Source of the DNA: Wenyingzhuangia fucanilytica
GTDB lineage: Bacteria > Bacteroidota > Bacteroidia > Flavobacteriales > Flavobacteriaceae
DNA: 64,000 nucleotides
Direction of reading: 5' to 3'
Assembly: GCF_001697185.1 (NCBI RefSeq)
Contig: NZ_CP014224.1
Span: forward strand, 124,001-188,000
Shown piece after piece: positions 33,212 through 60,070 of this stretch (position 1 is the first letter of the stretch; each line of letters begins with the position of its first letter). Under the pieces are notes generated by a model that made no database searches, was not told where the DNA came from, and was given only the letters and a program-made list of their open reading frames with translations. Made by a program: the position numbers and the translations under genes.

Positions 33212-34159
33212 ATGAGTAACACCATTAACGATACCAATTTTAACTTTCCTGGGCAAACAGCTATTTATAAAGGAAAAGTTCGTGAAGTATATACCGTAAA
33301 CGAAAAATTAGTGATGATTGCATCAGACAGACTTTCTGCTTTTGATGTAATTATGCCAAAACAAATTCCTTATAAAGGACAAATCTTAAATCAGATTGCG
33401 GCTAAAATGTTAGAAGCCACCAAAGATATTTGTCCAAACTGGGTGTTGGGAACACCAGATCCTAATGTAACTGTTGGGTATGCTTGTGAGCCTTTTAAAG
33501 TAGAAATGGTAGTGCGTGGGTACTGTACAGGTCATGCTTGGAGAACTTATGCTAGTGGAGAAAGAGTGTTGTGTGGAATTACCATGCCAGAGGGATTAAA
33601 AGAAAATGATAAGTTTCCAAATCCAATTATTACTCCAACCACTAAGGCTGATTTAGGAGATCATGATGAAGATATTTCTAGAGAAGAAATTTTAGCTAAA
33701 GGAATTGTATCTCAAGAAGATTACGAACAATTAGAGGCTTATACCTTGGCTTTGTTTAAAAAAGGAACTGAGTTAGCTGCAGATAGAGGATTGATATTGG
33801 TAGATACCAAATATGAGTTTGGAAAAACAGCAGATGGAAAAATTGTGGTGATTGATGAAATTCACACGCCAGATTCTTCTCGCTATTTTTATGCAGAAGG
33901 ATATCAAGAAAGACAAAACAAAGGAGAAGCTCAAAAGCAATTGTCTAAAGAATTTGTTCGTCAATGGTTAATAGAAAACGGTTTCCAAGGAAAAGAAGGA
34001 CAACAAATTCCTGAATTGACTGATGAAAAAATAGAAGAAATTTCTAACAGATATATTGAGTTATACGAGCAAATTACAGGAGAAACTTTTGTAAAAGCAG
34101 ATATTTCTAATGTGTTAGACAGAATAAACAAAAACGTAACTGAGTTTTTAACAAAGTAA
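33212..34159 (+). CDS. purC: Phosphoribosylaminoimidazole-succinocarboxamide synthase
   Basis: Joins CAIR and aspartate in purine synthesis. 315 residues, the longer form of SAICAR synthase (like yeast Ade1). Typical segments are [31 protein letters not shown] and the ATP-binding region LVDTKYEFG with [11 protein letters not shown]. It is followed by a bidirectional terminator. Confidence 0.96.
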
Positions 34160-34181
34160 ATTATCAGTTATAAAAGCATAA

Positions 34182-34216
34182 AAAACAGCCCAATCATTTT
34201 TTGATTAGGCTGTTTT
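34182..34216. terminator. Bidirectional terminator between purC and the DUF2063 gene
   Basis: Arms 34182-34196 and 34202-34216 pair at 14 of 15 positions, with A-rich and T-rich flanks, between two convergent genes. Confidence 0.8.
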
Positions 34217-34246
34217 GGTTTTTAATTAGTCTTGGGTTAGGGGTAA

Positions 34247-34963
34247 TTATTTAAATAGTAATTGTGTAACCAAAGATTGCTCAATAAATTCTTTAAAAGC
34301 AACATTTACATCATTTTCGGATGCGTATTTTTTTAGAATTTGTTTGATGTTTTGTTCCGTCAAAGGATTTGCAGATAAATGTTCTAAAACATCTACAAAG
34401 GGAATAGATAAATTGGTAAATTGAACTGAGCCTGTATCAGGATTTCGGTGAAGAGAAACAAAATAAGAACCTCTATCCTCTTCTGTAATTAAATGTGGAC
34501 TTTTAATATGTACAGGGTAAGAAAGCATCAATATATCTATTTCCGGGTTTAGTACATAAAAACCATCTTTAGGTTTTTCATAAGGCACATCAGGCATCAT
34601 AAAAATTTCTACTTCAAGCCATTCAAATTCTAATAGATTTTCTAAAAAAGGGTAGGTTTTTAATAGCTCATCTTCTTGTTTAATAAGGTAGTTTTTAAAT
34701 TCTTCGGGCATCCTCCAAATTTGTGGACTTTGTATGTTGTAAGTACTAAAAAAACAATTCACAATGTTTTCCCAATGGTCATCGCCTAATAAGTTTTTAG
34801 CAACAGGATAGGCAGTTTCTAAAGTATCTAACACATTGTTAAAAACCAAACGCCTGTAATGTGTTAGGTTTTTTTGCACAGCACCTTTTATGTCAACAAG
34901 GTCTCCTGTTCTACAATAAGTAGCCAAGCTACTTTGGTGTTGATGTGTTTTAGCTAATAACAT
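34247..34963 (-). CDS. DUF2063 protein, probable partner of the MNIO enzyme (BufC/HvfC-like)
   Basis: 238 residues. The N-terminal domain, with NLTHYRRLVFNNVLDTLETAYP and LLGDDHWENIVNCFF, is the DUF2063 family, whose members accompany DUF692 enzymes and help present the peptide substrate. The C-terminal half has a typical LSANPLTEQNI-like tail. It overlaps the DUF692 gene by 14 bases, so the two are translationally coupled, as in known bufferin and oxazolin operons. The role as substrate-binding partner is inferred from those families. Confidence 0.85.
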   Translation of the reverse strand: MLLAKTHQHQSSLATYCRTGDLVDIKGAVQKNLTHYRRLVFNNVLDTLETAYPVAKNLLGDDHWENIVNCFFSTYNIQSPQIWRMPEEFKNYLIKQEDELLKTYPFLENLLEFEWLEVEIFMMPDVPYEKPKDGFYVLNPEIDILMLSYPVHIKSPHLITEEDRGSYFVSLHRNPDTGSVQFTNLSIPFVDVLEHLSANPLTEQNIKQILKKYASENDVNVAFKEFIEQSLVTQLLFK

Positions 34964-35780
34964 GGGAATGTTTTTTTAAACTATTGGTTTTTATGTTTTG
35001 TAATTGATTCATTTCATATTGTAAAATGTCCAATTCAGGAATGTTAAAATCTCGCTCTAACAATACGGGTACATCACGTTGTAATTGTTGCATGGCGAAA
35101 CCAAACAAATCATAAACGGGATCTATAATGTTTTCTCCATGGGTGTCAATAATCAAATCATCAGAAACTTGAGTGTGACCTGCCATGTGTATGTATTTTA
35201 CCCTGTCTAAATCAAGGTTTGCTAAAAATTCTTTAGCATTGTATTGATGATTAAAACTGTTAACATATATATTATTTACATCTAACAATAGATTACAGTC
35301 TGCTTCTTTTACTACGTTGTTAATAAATTCCAATTCCGTCATTTCTGCTGCAATTGGAGAGTAGTAACTCACAATTTCTATGGCAATTTTTCTTTCTAAA
35401 ATATCTTGAGCCAAACGAATATTTTTGGCTACGTGTTTTACTGCATCTTGGGTAAAAGGAATGGGTAATAAATCAAATAAATGAGCATTATCGCATTTAG
35501 AAAAACTTAAATGCTCAGAGTATTCAACCGTGTTGGTATCGTCTAAAAACTGTTTTACTTGTTTTACAAAGTCAATATCAATTCCTTCAGGACTTCCTAC
35601 AGATAAAGATAGGCCGTGTACAAAAAGTGGATGTTTTTCTAAAGCTTTGTCAAATAACTTTTTATAATATCCACCAACGTTCATCCAGTTTTCTGGAGCT
35701 ACCTCTATAAAAGAAGGTGTTAGAATGTTGTTGCTTGCAAAATCTTCTGCAAAGTCTTTTCTGTATCCAATTCCTACCAT
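34950..35780 (-). CDS. DUF692/MNIO-family peptide-modifying enzyme (BufB/HvfB-like)
   Basis: 276 residues of the DUF692 family, multinuclear non-heme iron oxidases that modify cysteines in ribosomal peptides. The expected metal ligands are present: His55 in VHGLSLSVGS, Glu89-His90 in YSEHLSFS, Glu135, Asp167 and Asn170 in LLLDVNN, His178, His198 and His202 in YIHMAGH, Asp212 and His214 in IDTHGE, and Glu242. It lies directly after a cysteine-repeat precursor gene and before DUF2063. By family knowledge it should oxidise the precursor's Cys residues into heterocycles. The exact product is not predictable from sequence. Confidence 0.9.
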   Translation of the reverse strand: MVGIGYRKDFAEDFASNNILTPSFIEVAPENWMNVGGYYKKLFDKALEKHPLFVHGLSLSVGSPEGIDIDFVKQVKQFLDDTNTVEYSEHLSFSKCDNAHLFDLLPIPFTQDAVKHVAKNIRLAQDILERKIAIEIVSYYSPIAAEMTELEFINNVVKEADCNLLLDVNNIYVNSFNHQYNAKEFLANLDLDRVKYIHMAGHTQVSDDLIIDTHGENIIDPVYDLFGFAMQQLQRDVPVLLERDFNIPELDILQYEMNQLQNIKTNSLKKHSHVIS

Positions 35781-35796
35781 AATTTTTTGTTTAAAA

Positions 35797-35828
35797 TAGA
35801 CGGATCAATATTAAAATCGATCCGTCTA
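35797..35828 (-). terminator. Hairpin between the precursor gene and the MNIO enzyme gene
   Basis: A 10-bp perfect stem (35797-35806 with 35819-35828) followed on the minus strand by TTTT. It lies 22 bases after the precursor's stop and 16 bases before the enzyme's start. A leaky terminator here would give more precursor than enzyme; a 3' stabilising hairpin is the other option. Confidence 0.65.
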
Positions 35829-35849
35829 ATAAATTTTTAGGGGCGATTG

Positions 35850-36275
35850 TTATTTCTTTTCACCACATTTAGCATCCTTAGCTTTTGCCTCACCGCATTT
35901 AGCGTCTTTCGCTTTCGCTTCACCACACTTAGCATCCTTAGCCTTTGCTTCACCACATTTAGCATCTTTAGCTTTTGCTTCTCCGCATTTAGCATCCTTA
36001 GCTTTAGCCTCACCACACTTAGCGTCTTTAGCCTTTGCTTCACCGCATTTTGCATCAGTCGTTTTCTTTTCTCCACAAGCTCCTTGAATAGATTTTAATC
36101 CATCAACAGCAGAAGATAAAAGATTGGTAGTGTTAGTTAATAATTGTGTACGAACTTGTGATCCTGTTCCTAAATAATCAACAGTTAAATTTGTTGCAGT
36201 TGCATCGGTAGATGATACTAAAGCTCCAGCAATTAATGATCCTGTTAATAACGAGTTTTTTGTGAAATTTTTCAT
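35850..36275 (-). CDS. Secreted cysteine-repeat precursor peptide, probable oxazolin/bufferin-like RiPP substrate
   Basis: 141 residues. Residues 1-28 are a signal peptide (basic start, hydrophobic SLIAGALVSS core, ATA before the likely cut). A short spacer (29-65) precedes a Cys-rich part: ACGE at 66-69, then six perfect copies of the decapeptide KCGEAKAKDA (76-135) and a final KCGEKK. Cys are at 67, 77, 87, 97, 107, 117, 127 and 137. The KCGE core matches the EGKCG-type motif of HvfA/BufA substrates of DUF692 enzymes, but those usually carry fewer Cys. The gene lies 22 bases after the DUF255 gene and 69 bases before the DUF692 gene. Metal (probably copper) binding after modification is inferred. 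Confidence 0.88.
   Translation of the reverse strand: MKNFTKNSLLTGSLIAGALVSSTDATATNLTVDYLGTGSQVRTQLLTNTTNLLSSAVDGLKSIQGACGEKKTTDAKCGEAKAKDAKCGEAKAKDAKCGEAKAKDAKCGEAKAKDAKCGEAKAKDAKCGEAKAKDAKCGEKK
35871..36050 (-). repeat. Six 30-bp tandem repeats inside the precursor gene
   Basis: Six 30-bp units each encode the identical decapeptide but differ from one another at several third codon positions (AAA/AAG, GCT/GCC/GCA, GGT/GGA/GGC types, TGC/TGT). Protein identity with silent divergence points to selection on the peptide, not fresh slippage. Confidence 0.9.
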
Positions 36276-36297
36276 AAGATTTGATTTTTAATAATTA

Positions 36298-38016
36298 TTA
36301 TTTGTTTTTATTTAATTCTTTTTTGAGTTCCTCCTCCGAGTATATAGGTGTAGAGCAATAAGTAGAAGTACAGCTAAACAGTACATTTTCTTTAAAGCTT
36401 CCAAATAGTTCTTGTTTTTCTTTTGGGAGTTGATGAATTTTCCCGCTATAAACCATACTGTAAAATGGCAACATACTTTGTAAAGCATGGTTAAATTCAT
36501 TTCCTTTTCCAGTATCTAAATACACATATTGTGTAGGTTCTTGTTTTAACTCATAGGCTAAAAGCAGTAAAGAGGCTTCTGAATAATAATCTTTAATCAA
36601 TGCCTTTGAGGTTAAAAACTGAAATGTTTTTTTAGCAATATTGATATAGTTGTTGTCTTTTGAGTAGTATCCATACCAGTTAAAAATTCTTGCTATACTG
36701 ATGTTTTCTTCCTTTAATGGTTGGGCTGTCAACCCATTGTTTCCGCTAAAACTTTTAAAAGCACCATTTTCTAATAAATAGTTCTTTTTAATTTGCATAC
36801 AAATTGATCTTAGCTCTTGTTTTGCTTTACTGTTGTTGATGTCATTTTTAACAAGGCTGATTAAAAAATTAGCCATAGCTATTTGATCTCTTAGACTTGT
36901 AATTTTGCTCTCTTCACTGCCATGTGCGTATAAACCAGATGTTTTCTTTCGCTTGTACAAAGCATTTTCTATGTTTTTAACTTTGTTTAAATACTTTTTG
37001 TTATGTGTAACATGGTACATTCTTAATAGGGCAGTACCCATAGCTGCATTGTTGTCTGTAAAAGTGTTTTGGTCAACTTTTGGAATTCCTAACTTTCTTC
37101 TTTCTATATTGTTTAGCTTAAAATAATCAGCAGCATGTTTACCTTGAATTAAATCTGCGTCTTGTGCGTTACTATACAGTCCGTTTTTATGGATTAAAAA
37201 TTCATCAATATATTTAATGATGTTTTGAGCATATACTAAAGAATTTTCATCTCTGTTATATTGGTAATTCAGTAAAAAAATATTTAAATACCTAGCCTGT
37301 ATTTTTAATAATTTTTCAAAATGTAGATGTTCCCAATCTCCATGAGTTGAATATTGATAAACACCACCCCAAACAGGGTCGCTTAGTTTTTTAGCTCCTT
37401 TAATACTATTGTAAATCCATGTTTTTATATTAGGATGTTTGCTGTTAAATAGTGCTTTTTCAAAAGTGGCGTATTCAATATATTTTTGAGCTTGATTAAA
37501 TCCTCCTTGTTTAAAATCTAAAGAGTTGATAAAGTTATTCTCTAAGGTGGATATTAGAGTGTTGTTGTTTTGATTGTTATTGATGACTTTAGTAAAATCA
37601 ACAGGGTTTTCTTCTGGACTTGGGTCTTTAACAATGGCTTTTAATAGTTTTAGAAAATTATCAGGAGCTATAAACCCAGCTCTTTTTACAATATCAATTC
37701 CATCTGCATTAATAAAAATAGTAGCAGGCCAACCGTAATCCTTATACCTGTTAGACAATTCAGGGTTTGCATCTTGATCTGCTTTTACACTAATAAAATG
37801 TTGATTTAAAAAACTGATGACTTTGTTGTTTTCATAAGTTTCATCATCCATTACATGGCACCAATGACACCAGTTAGCAGCCAGATTTAAAAGAATAATT
37901 TTATTTTCTTTTTTGGCTTGTTCAAAGGTTTTGGCAGATAACTCTTGCCAGTCAATTGCATTGGCAAAAGAAAAGCTATGAATTAAGATGATAAGAATAC
38001 TGCAAAAACGTTTCAT
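36298..38016 (-). CDS. Secreted DUF255/YyaL-like thioredoxin-fold protein
   Basis: 572 residues with a signal peptide ending near residue 20 (FANA). The N-terminal DUF255 thioredoxin-like domain has WCHWCHVM with Cys50 and Cys53, the signature of the YyaL/SPATA20 family. The rest is the family's alpha-helical glycosidase-like domain, and the C-terminal CTSTYC pair (Cys549, Cys554) matches the usual CxNxxC-type tail. It is shorter than typical members (about 680 residues) and is exported, which is unusual. It is 22 bases upstream of the Cys-repeat precursor, so the unit reads DUF255, precursor, DUF692, DUF2063. A redox or metal-handling role for the precursor is inference. Confidence 0.85.
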   Translation of the reverse strand: MKRFCSILIILIHSFSFANAIDWQELSAKTFEQAKKENKIILLNLAANWCHWCHVMDDETYENNKVISFLNQHFISVKADQDANPELSNRYKDYGWPATIFINADGIDIVKRAGFIAPDNFLKLLKAIVKDPSPEENPVDFTKVINNNQNNNTLISTLENNFINSLDFKQGGFNQAQKYIEYATFEKALFNSKHPNIKTWIYNSIKGAKKLSDPVWGGVYQYSTHGDWEHLHFEKLLKIQARYLNIFLLNYQYNRDENSLVYAQNIIKYIDEFLIHKNGLYSNAQDADLIQGKHAADYFKLNNIERRKLGIPKVDQNTFTDNNAAMGTALLRMYHVTHNKKYLNKVKNIENALYKRKKTSGLYAHGSEESKITSLRDQIAMANFLISLVKNDINNSKAKQELRSICMQIKKNYLLENGAFKSFSGNNGLTAQPLKEENISIARIFNWYGYYSKDNNYINIAKKTFQFLTSKALIKDYYSEASLLLLAYELKQEPTQYVYLDTGKGNEFNHALQSMLPFYSMVYSGKIHQLPKEKQELFGSFKENVLFSCTSTYCSTPIYSEEELKKELNKNK

Positions 38017-38140
38017 GTGAATGTTATTTGCAATATCTACGAGAAAGAAATCTAAACGGTTTTATTTTTTTTCAAAAAAAAATAAATTTTGGGAGAAAGA
38101 GAGGGGAGTATTGGGTAAAGCGTTAATGGTAGTGGATAAA

Positions 38141-39001
38141 TTATTGATTCTTTTTACTTAGAATCCACATTAATATTCCTCCTGTAATATACATCCAAAT
38201 AGAATAAGCAGCTGTAGGTATGGCCATTTCAATATTGTTTAACATAGAAGTTGAAATAACAATGGCTAAAGTTGCATTTTGTATACCTCCGTCTACCCCA
38301 ATAGCTATGGCATCAGAAAAATGAAGTTTAAAAATTTTGGCTAATAAAAATCCAGATGCAATAATGCTAAGGTTTAATAGTAAAGTTACCCATCCTACTC
38401 TTTGAATCGCATCTCCTATAGTACTGTAGTTTGTGGCAATAATTCCGGTTAAAATCAAAATAAAAATAATTGTAGAGGCAGTTCTCATAGGTTTTATCAT
38501 ACGAGATGAAACCTTTGGATGATATTTTTTTATCATCATTCCTATTGTGATTGGAAGAACGGTAATAGCCATAATTTGCATTACGGTTTCGGCAAATGGT
38601 AGTTCTATTTTAATGTTAGAGTAAGTGTTAAAATAACTTAGCGCATAGGAAATAGTAACTTGTGTAGAGATAATACTGATAAAACTGATAACAGCAGTTA
38701 AAGTAACAGATAGGGCTAAGTTTCCATTACAAATTTGGGTGATGATATTACTTGTAGGACCTCCAGGGCAGGAAGCTAAGATAATTAAACCTACAGCCAT
38801 GGTGGTATCTAGTTTAAAAAAAATGGCTAGACCAAAAGCAATTAGTGGCAGTATAATGGTTTGATTGATAATTCCTAAAATAGCGGCTTTGGGCTGTCTA
38901 AAGATTCTTGAAAAATCACGAATGGTAAGTGACATCCCCATCCCAAGCATAATGATGGCTAAAGAACAAGGTAAAAATAAATCTAGCAGTATGTCAGACA
39001 T
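38141..39001 (-). CDS. Bile acid:sodium symporter-family transporter
   Basis: Polytopic membrane protein of the BASS family, about 286 residues with nine or ten membrane segments. Conserved segments are LGMGMSLTIRDF near the N-terminus, ASCPGGPTSNIITQ (the sodium-site crossover region) and GGIQNATLAIV. I choose the start at 39001 (MSDILLDLFLPCSLAIIMLG); an ATG at 39037 would add 12 residues. Bacterial members carry various organic anions, so no substrate is claimed. Confidence 0.85.
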   Translation of the reverse strand: MSDILLDLFLPCSLAIIMLGMGMSLTIRDFSRIFRQPKAAILGIINQTIILPLIAFGLAIFFKLDTTMAVGLIILASCPGGPTSNIITQICNGNLALSVTLTAVISFISIISTQVTISYALSYFNTYSNIKIELPFAETVMQIMAITVLPITIGMMIKKYHPKVSSRMIKPMRTASTIIFILILTGIIATNYSTIGDAIQRVGWVTLLLNLSIIASGFLLAKIFKLHFSDAIAIGVDGGIQNATLAIVISTSMLNNIEMAIPTAAYSIWMYITGGILMWILSKKNQ

Positions 39002-39108: not shown

Positions 39109-39486
39109 TTATTTAAGTAAGGGTGTGTATTTGTCTTTATTTTCTATCATCACCCAAGCAAGAATTGCGCTTAAAACAAATGGCATAATTAATTCATCTG
39201 GTTCGGTAACAATATGAAAAAGTACAATCCCTACCATTACAGGTAAAATAATAATAGCTCCCAAGGCTCTTGTTTTGTTAAAAATAAATAGAACTCCTCC
39301 AACAATTTCCGCCACAGCTACTAAAGGCATCAACCATTTAAGACTCATCATTGCTGTCATAGCATCTAATAATTCTTGAGGCATTTCTTCGGGCATGGGC
39401 ATGTAGTTAAAAAACTTATTGAGTCCAGCATTTATAAACATTAGCCCAAATAATAGGCTCACTACAAAAAGAATTTTGTTTTTCAT
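39109..39486 (-). CDS. DoxX-like small membrane protein
   Basis: 125 residues with four hydrophobic segments. The N-terminus FGLMFINAGLNKFFNYMP and the middle VAVAEIVGGVLFIFNKTRALGAIIILPVM match the DoxX/DoxD-like family. DoxX proteins are common companions of MNIO operons, but here a BASS transporter gene and a terminator separate it from that cluster, so any link is loose. The function is unknown. Confidence 0.82.
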   Translation of the reverse strand: MKNKILFVVSLLFGLMFINAGLNKFFNYMPMPEEMPQELLDAMTAMMSLKWLMPLVAVAEIVGGVLFIFNKTRALGAIIILPVMVGIVLFHIVTEPDELIMPFVLSAILAWVMIENKDKYTPLLK

Positions 39487-58894: not shown

Positions 58895-60070
58895 TACTGT
58901 CACTTCGAGTGAATCACATAATAAAATGAAGTGCTTTGTATCGAGAAGTATTTTCTTGAAAGATTTTCTTCTTATTCCTTCAGAGGATATTACTATAATA
59001 TTTGTCCACTGTCACTTCGAGTGAATCACGTAATAAGATGAAGAGGTTTGTATCGAGGAGTGCTTTTTAGAAAGATTTCCTTCCTATTCCTTCTCATGAT
59101 ATTACTATAATATTAGCCACTGTCACTTCGAGTAAATCATGGAATAAGATGAAGTGCTTTGTATCGAGAAGTGTTTTTAGAAAGATTTTCTTCTTATTCC
59201 TTCACAGGATATTACTATAATATTTGTCCACTGTCACTTCGAGTGAATCACATAATAAGATGAAGTGATTTGTATCGAGAAGTGTTTTTTAGAAAGATTT
59301 TCTTCCTATTCCTTCTCAGGATATTACTATAATATTTGTCCACTGTCACTTCGAGTGAATCACATAATGAGATGAAGAGGTTTGTATCGAGGAGTGCTTT
59401 TTAGAAAGATTTTCTTCTTATTACTTCTCAATACATTACTATAATATTTGTCACTGTCACTTCGAGTGAATCACATAATGAGATGAAGAGGTTTGTATCG
59501 AGGAGTGCTTTTTAGAAAGATTTTCTTCTTATTCCTTGACAGGATACTACTATAATATTTTGCCACTGTCACTTCGAGTAAATCACGGAATAAGATGAAG
59601 AGGTTTGTATAGATAAGTGCTTTTTAGAAAGATTTTCTTCTTATTCCTTCACAGGATATTACTATAATATTTGTCCACTGTCACTTCGAGTGAATCACAT
59701 AATGAGATGAAGAGGTTTGTATAGATAAGTGCTTTTTAGAAAGATTTTCTTCTTATTACTTCTCAATACATTACTATAATATTTGTCACTGTCACTTCGA
59801 GTGAATCACATAATGAGATGAAGAGGTTTGTATCGAGGAGTGCTTTTTAGAAAGATTTTCTTCTTATTCCTTCACAGGATACTACTATAATATTTTGCCA
59901 CTGTCACTTCGAGTGAATCACATAATGAGATGAAGAGGTTTGTATCGAGGAGTGCTTTTTAGAAAGATTTTCTTCTTATTCCTTCACAGGATATTACTAT
60001 AATATTAGCCACTGTCACTTCGAGTAAATCACGTAATAAAATGAAGTGATTTGTATCGAGAAGTACATAG
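58895..60070. repeat. Tandem array of eleven ~111-bp repeat units
   Basis: The stretch 58869-60149 has no gene. It holds eleven head-to-tail units whose CACTTCGAGT cores start at 58901, 59013, 59123, 59235, 59347, 59458, 59570, 59682, 59793, 59905 and 60016, spacing 110-112 bp. The last unit is cut after about 50 bases. Each unit starts with a small palindrome, CACTTCGAGTG, has a partial complement GAGAAGTG or GAGGAGTG about 40 bases on, and ends with a TTACTATAATATT tail. There are no unique spacers and no coding potential. The unit resembles a dispersed inverted-repeat element I recall from flavobacteria. Confidence 0.92.

Follow-up and report, generated by a model that had tools for sequence, protein, structure and literature searches.

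A four-gene HvfA-type peptide cassette with an unpaired cysteine array and a linked DUF255 gene in Wenyingzhuangia fucanilytica

We analyzed 64,000 nucleotides (nt) of Wenyingzhuangia fucanilytica DNA (assembly GCF_001697185.1, contig NZ_CP014224.1, positions 124,001 to 188,000; hereafter the window) and identified a four-gene cassette of the kind that produces ribosomally synthesized and post-translationally modified peptides (RiPPs) related to HvfA (oxazolin). All four genes lie on the minus strand and are transcribed in the order DUF255 protein, precursor, MNIO (DUF692) enzyme and DUF2063 partner (Table 1). The genes are closely spaced, with 22 nt between DUF255 and the precursor, 69 nt between the precursor and the MNIO, and an MNIO/DUF2063 overlap of 14 nt (34950-34963). 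An earlier reading of this DNA from its letters alone (the original prediction) reported the same enzyme pair and overlap and proposed an HvfA-type cluster. The NCBIfam and Pfam matches bear out this assignment.

Table 1. Genes and features of the cassette in order of transcription (positions are those of the window; scores in bits are given against the model cut-off).
Feature	Coordinates	Strand	Evidence
DUF255 thioredoxin-like protein, 572 aa	36298..38016	-	PF03190 93.1 bits vs 27; CHWCH motif; signal-like N-terminus (by eye)
HvfA-like RiPP precursor, 141 aa, 8 Cys	35850..36275	-	NF050137 30.3 bits vs 19.5
Probable Sec signal peptide, precursor residues 1-27	36195..36275	-	Hydropathy peak; A-T-A site by eye
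Leader motif LGTGSQVR, precursor residues 35-42, possible recognition element (putative role)	36150..36173	-	
Core array, Cys67 to Cys137, exact 10-residue steps	35853..36080	-	
Hairpin, precursor/MNIO intergenic	35797..35828	-	-19.2 kcal/mol when folded (z -6.6); compensatory changes at 3 of 10 pairs, four species
MNIO (DUF692), HvfB family, 276 aa	34950..35780	-	NF003818 375.9 bits vs 360; PF05114; 3bww
DUF2063 partner (HvfC-like), 238 aa	34247..34963	-	PF09836 over cut-off; NF050145 115.9 bits, below 142

The precursor exceeds the cut-off of the NCBIfam model for the KCGExKCG domain of the HvfA family. It contains eight CGE sites and six perfect KCGEAKAKDA units, as originally counted, and Tandem Repeats Finder (TRF) reports a 30-nt tandem array at 35859-36056. 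At least 10 nucleotide differences separate the six perfect units, and all are synonymous. Given that 20% of random changes in a unit would be synonymous, a crude independence model gives P ~1e-7 for this pattern. Thus, the array is held by selection on the protein. The N-terminus resembles a Sec signal peptide, with its hydropathy peak (1.95) over residues 10-20, and the precursor is probably exported. AlphaFold2, run with an 11-row alignment, returned no confident fold (pLDDT 42.9, pTM 0.16), a result that is neutral as to the beta-helix described in a longer relative (PMC12452194).

Read from its acidic residue, the repeat is DAKCGEAKAK and shares A2, K3, C4, G5, E6 and K8 with EAKCGEGKCG, the core of FonA. 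Position 1 is acidic in both, with a conservative change from E in FonA to D in the window. Because six of ten positions match, the array reads as a two-pentamer unit with its second cysteine replaced, and the decapeptide looks like the known two-repeat unit in which the second Cys-Gly was replaced and the register kept. The replacement is mostly Ala-Lys or Thr-Lys. The Glu after Cys-Gly (E6), which mattered for modification by FonBC (PMC13097082), is kept at 32/32 sites in the four Wenyingzhuangia precursors (the window's and those of three congeners).

The MNIO aligns to PDB 3bww over residues 2-270 (E 2.4e-69). Across an alignment of 13 MNIOs of the order, nine residues do not vary (H55, H90, E135, D167, N170, H198, D212, H214 and E242). 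This conservation and the 3bww alignment support the original statement that all expected metal ligands are present, where the assignment of ligands among these residues is our assumption. By residue count on the 3bww alignment, N170, D212 and H214 correspond to N175, D242 and H244 of HvfB, replacement of which abolished activity (PMC13419390). Alignment and residue count also equate D244 and F245 with D249/F250 of FonB, and R7/K8 with R15/R16 (the second conservatively changed), residues that matter for FonB (PMC13097082). The DUF2063 partner is recognized by Pfam, and its AlphaFold2 model (pLDDT 88) matches the folds of 3dee (E 1.2e-8), TglHI (8.6e-7) and, weakly, MbnC (0.019).

We placed the enzyme in a tree of 93 MNIOs, comprising the window's, 12 from members of its order (three of them congeners) and the best 80 of at least 587 genome-contig candidates. 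The four Wenyingzhuangia enzymes group together (100/100) and are nested in a 31-row clade (100/100); support within this clade is uneven, and the bootstrap of the tree was not settled. This clade is mostly Bacteroidota, including members of the window's order, with single rows labeled Chlamydiota, Verrucomicrobiota and Beijerinckiaceae, and of the named rows, Chitinophaga costaii and a Sediminibacterium metagenome-assembled genome (MAG) are the closest by path. The suggestion of a Bacteroidota version of the system is thus upheld. The Beijerinckiaceae row (L064) is a MAG contig with an MNIO 63% identical to the window's, and may reflect transfer or a mis-binned contig. I136 (E-I for the usual E-N) was considered as a mark of unpaired substrate and rejected, as Ile occurs in 12 of the 93 enzymes, including L048, L061 and L063, which have paired precursors.

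A precursor was called at 77 of the 93 loci. The 16 loci without a call were excluded, although at least two (L068 and L138) show a paired precursor, whose call was lost to a start of the MNIO open reading frame (ORF) set too far upstream. Of the 77 precursors, 37 have eight or more Cys-Gly sites, with a maximum of 24, so eight cysteines are ordinary. Published precursors reach 506 residues, one of them has 58 Cys, and repeats 17 residues long with two EGKCG motifs are described (PMC12452194). The original description of the precursor as expanded into a long array is therefore not supported, and a cysteine-thinned two-pentamer unit describes it better. What sets it apart is spacing: of the 77 precursors, those of the window and three congeners are alone in keeping uniform steps over at least five intervals (10 residues each; 8, 9, 8 and 7 sites). 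All 32 Cys-Gly sites of these four precursors are unpaired, versus 90 of 569 in the other 73 (479 paired). Partly unpaired arrays occur in Shewanella, Thiohalobacter, Acinetobacter and others (e.g., 8/12 sites in L090, 5/7 in L081 and 4/6 in L110), so the trait in the window is the extreme of a range. Two further precursors, both counted within the 73, lack pairs: L108, with three sites, and L130, which is cut by a contig end. The layout is unusual; the number of sites is not. Leader motifs of the type LG[ST][GA]..[EQDA][VIL]R were identified in 22 of the 77 precursors, every one at a locus with its MNIO inside the 31-row clade. In the literature surveyed on bufferins, MNIO/DUF692, HvfA/oxazolin and captophorins (mostly open main texts, few subscription papers), neither a fully unpaired array nor a DUF255 partner is described.

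In 4/4 carriers, the DUF255 gene ends 21-22 nt before the precursor gene; 7tkv and 3ira are PDB relatives of its product by sequence. Among the seven genomes of the genus, open frames of 583-619 aa with a PF03190 match are confined to the hvf locus of the four carriers, and all other matches fall in frames of 155-194 or 640-746 aa. In one congener (G002), the order is a 122-aa gene, DUF2063, MNIO, precursor, DUF255 and a putative nitrilase-GNAT gene. In two others (G006 and G004), the 122-aa gene is directly beside the nitrilase-GNAT gene and DUF255-hvfA-hvfB-hvfC are missing; BLAST of G002 against G006 places a single 3.9-kb block in G002 against 11 bases in G006. The fragment available from G005 is uninformative for the empty site. 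The window and the other two carriers (G001 and G003) have the cassette in the same region, where DoxX and SBF genes separate it from the nitrilase-GNAT gene; its exact site there is thus not the one occupied in G002, against which alone the empty site is established. The 122-aa protein that marks the empty site (L172 11104-11472 in one genome, L168 11167-11535 in the other) has a signal-like start, no NCBIfam match, and no tblastn match in the window. We count DUF255, whose presence and absence follow those of hvfABC, as the cassette's fourth gene. The original prediction included this gene in its range without remarking on it.

Outside the genus, a full-length DUF255 gene was found near one examined locus (L048), 646 nt before the precursor, and none was found in the sequence around each of the best 80 named MNIO loci. 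Matches at L046 (18 bits), L052 (a fragment of 69 aa at the edge of the locus) and L072 (60 bits) were not taken as full-length. One captophorin product is aggregation-prone, which was attributed to disulfides (PMC13097082), and a disulfide was inferred in another product (PMC12538549). DUF255 may thus have a redox role toward peptide thiols. Other redox genes, oxidored_molybd and ferric reductase, are named in a few clusters (PMC12452194). Neither PMC12452194 nor PMC13097082 uses the word thioredoxin in its main text.

The gap between the precursor and MNIO genes can form a hairpin with a 13-bp stem, which also went unnoticed originally. Across the four congeneric loci, a 10-pair stem is paired in 39 of its 40 cells. 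Three stem pairs, each owing its change to a single species (G002), are altered on both sides; none of the six slid controls has such a pair, and 5 of 500 shuffles give at least as many. Gaps of 30-160 nt are present at 54 of the 77 loci, and z falls below -2.5 at 37 of these versus 1 of 54 control stretches, which were taken from coding sequence within the MNIO gene rather than from other gaps; related species are counted separately, and misjudged ORF starts may have shifted some gaps. The hairpin looks like a feature of many such operons. Its T run is weak, and a search of 34000-38400 gave no Rfam match at gathering score, so it reaches no known RNA family. The hairpin probably sets an excess of precursor over enzyme.

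A precursor search over 99 genomes, including that of the window, gave 10 matches: its own genome, 3/6 congeners, 0/53 genomes of other genera in the family and 6/39 of other families in the order. One of these six (G068; L009/L047) was judged false, as neither an MNIO nor a KCGE precursor is present there, and another of the six is G060 (L049), described below. Within the genus, PF05114 occurs in 4/7 genomes, identical to the four with the precursor (one non-carrier is 85% complete), and the precursor adjoins the MNIO in 3/3 other congeners possessing the enzyme, as the original prediction expected of related genomes. MNIO matches were found in 38 of 395 genomes of the order, many of other kinds. 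The NCBIfam precursor model, run over 395 phylum genomes at E 0.001, matched four, all with precursors containing CxxxxC pairs, and missed the window's own genome; it is thus too insensitive for a base rate.

Other arrangements were seen during this survey. In one genus (g79), an MNIO is present in seven genomes and follows a 13-14-Cys protein in the four neighborhoods read (L056, L057, L059 and L060). There, as at 4905-8774 of L056, the genes encode a 504-aa protein (presumably ferritin-like), a 192-195-aa protein that has 13-14 Cys and lacks an obvious signal peptide, the MNIO and a 279-aa protein; the cysteine-rich protein of L056 has a weak BufA2 match (21.3 vs 60 bits). In a 1.3-Mb genome (G369; L028/L058), the MNIO match contains two in-frame TAA codons and has a short DUF2063-like ORF in its vicinity, probably a decaying cluster. 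In G060 (L049), sigma-like and small Cys-containing ORFs precede a KCGE precursor, which either stands alone or has its enzymes elsewhere.

We consider it probable (about 0.72) that the four genes form an oxazolin/captophorin-type RiPP cassette that makes an exported, Cu(I)-buffering peptide. The MNIO and its partner would recognize the leader in the LGTGSQVR region and oxidize each Cys of the CGE array to 5-thiooxazole with loss of 4 H, a predicted total of -32.25 Da from a mature peptide of 11664.887 Da (monoisotopic) if cleavage follows residue 27; a loss near 4 Da per Cys, as originally proposed, agrees with what is published on relatives (PMC12538549, PMC13097082). After export by Sec, the peptide may bind Cu(I) in the periplasm as a buffer. 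The exported DUF255 protein may keep the ring thiols, or unmodified Cys, reduced and hence binding-competent, and the hairpin after the precursor gene would let the transcript yield more precursor than enzyme. The gene set, leader motif, conserved residues, array, co-inheritance and hairpin are read from the DNA; 5-thiooxazole formation and Cu(I) binding would carry over from characterized relatives. The original interpretation stands as to the kind of cluster, and not as to array expansion or completeness.

Several observations weigh against this reading. The full-length HvfA model (NF050188) gives the precursor 14.2 bits vs 95, and its first Cys stands in a QGACG context, without the acidic residue and Lys. 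The HvfC model stays under its curated cut-off for the DUF2063 partner, as it does for the partners of L044, L048 and L051. No HvfX-type DoxX gene, common though not universal in oxazolin operons, is present in the cassette, and no extracytoplasmic function (ECF) sigma/anti-sigma pair was seen by eye among its ORFs, although several relatives carry one, so no regulator is visible in the cassette. In G060 (L049, 6934-7861), a KCGE precursor is followed by DoxX with no MNIO match on the 11-kb contig. FonBC in vitro modified a substrate with two EGKCG repeats and not one with a single repeat, and an AKCGA double repeat was modified only once (PMC13097082); full modification of unpaired sites is therefore not assured. 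Finally, MmrA-C proteins went undetected in Microbulbifer even with added copper, and the authors are hesitant about copper protection (PMC12538549).

The FonBC results conflict with those on MmrA, in which a Cys still loses 4 H after its pair partner is changed to Ala (PMC12538549), suggesting that an unpaired Cys is modifiable. On balance, we expect the unpaired Cys to be modified. If they are not, the precursor could be partly modified and largely a metallothionein-like Cys/Lys-rich peptide. The single-repeat failure of FonBC and the 32/32 unpaired sites in the genus would fit this, but the MNIO and partner are kept in 4/4 carriers with the listed residues intact, and the units diverge only synonymously, so we regard it as improbable. 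Somewhat less improbable, though still unlikely, is that the same cassette serves mainly redox or oxidative stress, with thiols cycling with the DUF255 protein and copper incidental. The extra gene is thioredoxin-like and travels with hvfABC, and oxidative stress is also reported to induce such pathways (PMC13097082). However, characterized products are generally reported to bind Cu (PMC13097082, PMC12538549), and no redox substrate is known. A chance low-complexity repeat beside an unrelated enzyme is very improbable: Lys/Ala/Glu-rich repeats arise easily and the predicted structure is not confident, but KCGE-type precursors were called at 77/93 MNIO loci, the family match is curated and the synonymous differences among units speak against it.

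Within the preferred copper-buffering reading, a tentative and more specific possibility is that the peptide is unpaired by design. The second Cys-Gly of every two-repeat unit would have been removed with the five-residue register kept, leaving isolated thiooxazoles that might bind Cu(I) between distant units or chains, with no close intrachain pair or disulfide and with a dedicated periplasmic thioredoxin-like protein to hold their thiols reduced. If true, this would be a third design beside the ordered bufferins and the paired EGKCG peptides. The variant with every second Cys replaced was made by nature and kept in four species with 7, 8, 8 and 9 sites. It offers a natural test of whether copper is held by neighboring thiooxazole pairs or stochastically along the chain, as PMC13097082 suspects, and of the need for two adjacent repeats. 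These peptides may have their thiol-redox partner in the product of the linked DUF255 gene. The survey also documents hvf clusters outside Pseudomonadota; the string "Bacteroid" is absent from the running main texts of PMC12452194, PMC12538549 and PMC13097082 (figure images and supplements aside), and PMC12636315 treats another MNIO group in Bacteroidota.

Around the cassette, we take neighboring genes to encode PhoH, PurC, RpoN and the nitrilase-GNAT protein. An inverted repeat with A/T runs on both sides (34186-34212, read by eye) between purC and DUF2063 is probably a shared two-way terminator. The DoxX gene at 39109-39486 was considered as HvfX and rejected; it has no HvfX match, and no DoxX match lies in the 15 kb around the G002 cassette. 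Both HvfX matches in the window's own genome are below cut-off and located elsewhere (best 40.3 vs 80 bits). Elsewhere in the window, 58896-60064 holds about 10.5 tandem copies of a 112-bp unit with about 90% matches (TRF).

Among known systems, bufferins are not indicated, as no BufA1 (DUF2282) or BufA2 precursor match was found and the BufB-type model NF050167 gives 261.6 bits vs 310. Likewise, the methanobactin MbnB model TIGR04159 gives the MNIO 50.1 bits vs 325. Oxazolin HvfABC of Haemophilus influenzae (Buf_EGKCG/oxazolin of PMC12452194) and the window share a precursor with KCGE sites and a signal peptide (probable in the window), an HvfB-family MNIO, a DUF2063 partner and the A-B-C order. 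HvfA has three paired AEGKCGEGKCG units (PMC13419390), whereas the window has eight unpaired units in 10-residue steps; the paired EGKCGEGKCG hallmark occurs at 0/32 sites in the four congeners. The window also differs in its leader (LGTG..VR), the lack of HvfX and the extra DUF255 gene. The captophorins (fontiphorin FonABC and gonophorin; PMC13097082) come close in core sequence, at the six positions noted above, but retain the second Cys-Gly that the window replaces. Bulbicupramide MmrABC of Microbulbifer likewise combines multiple KCG sites with an MNIO and DUF2063; each Cys loses 4 H, and the product binds Cu(I). The version of MmrA that was studied carries three two-Cys cassettes, and its flanking genes were thought uninvolved (PMC12538549).

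The closest clusters are those of the 31-row clade (L044-L046, L048, L050-L054 and L061-L078), with mostly LGSG-type leaders and MNIOs 52-70% identical to the window's. Unlike the window, every precursor called there has at least one CxxxxC pair, and several clusters carry ECF sigma/anti-sigma genes and an L051-type DoxX (that of L051 is HvfX over cut-off). The ECF sigma factor and the adjoining small Cys-containing protein of these relatives are labels that we assume. A full-length DUF255 gene is found only near L048 among them. The family is thus known and nameable by NCBIfam, and the window holds a genus-level variant of it with an uncommon layout and a linked thioredoxin-like gene.

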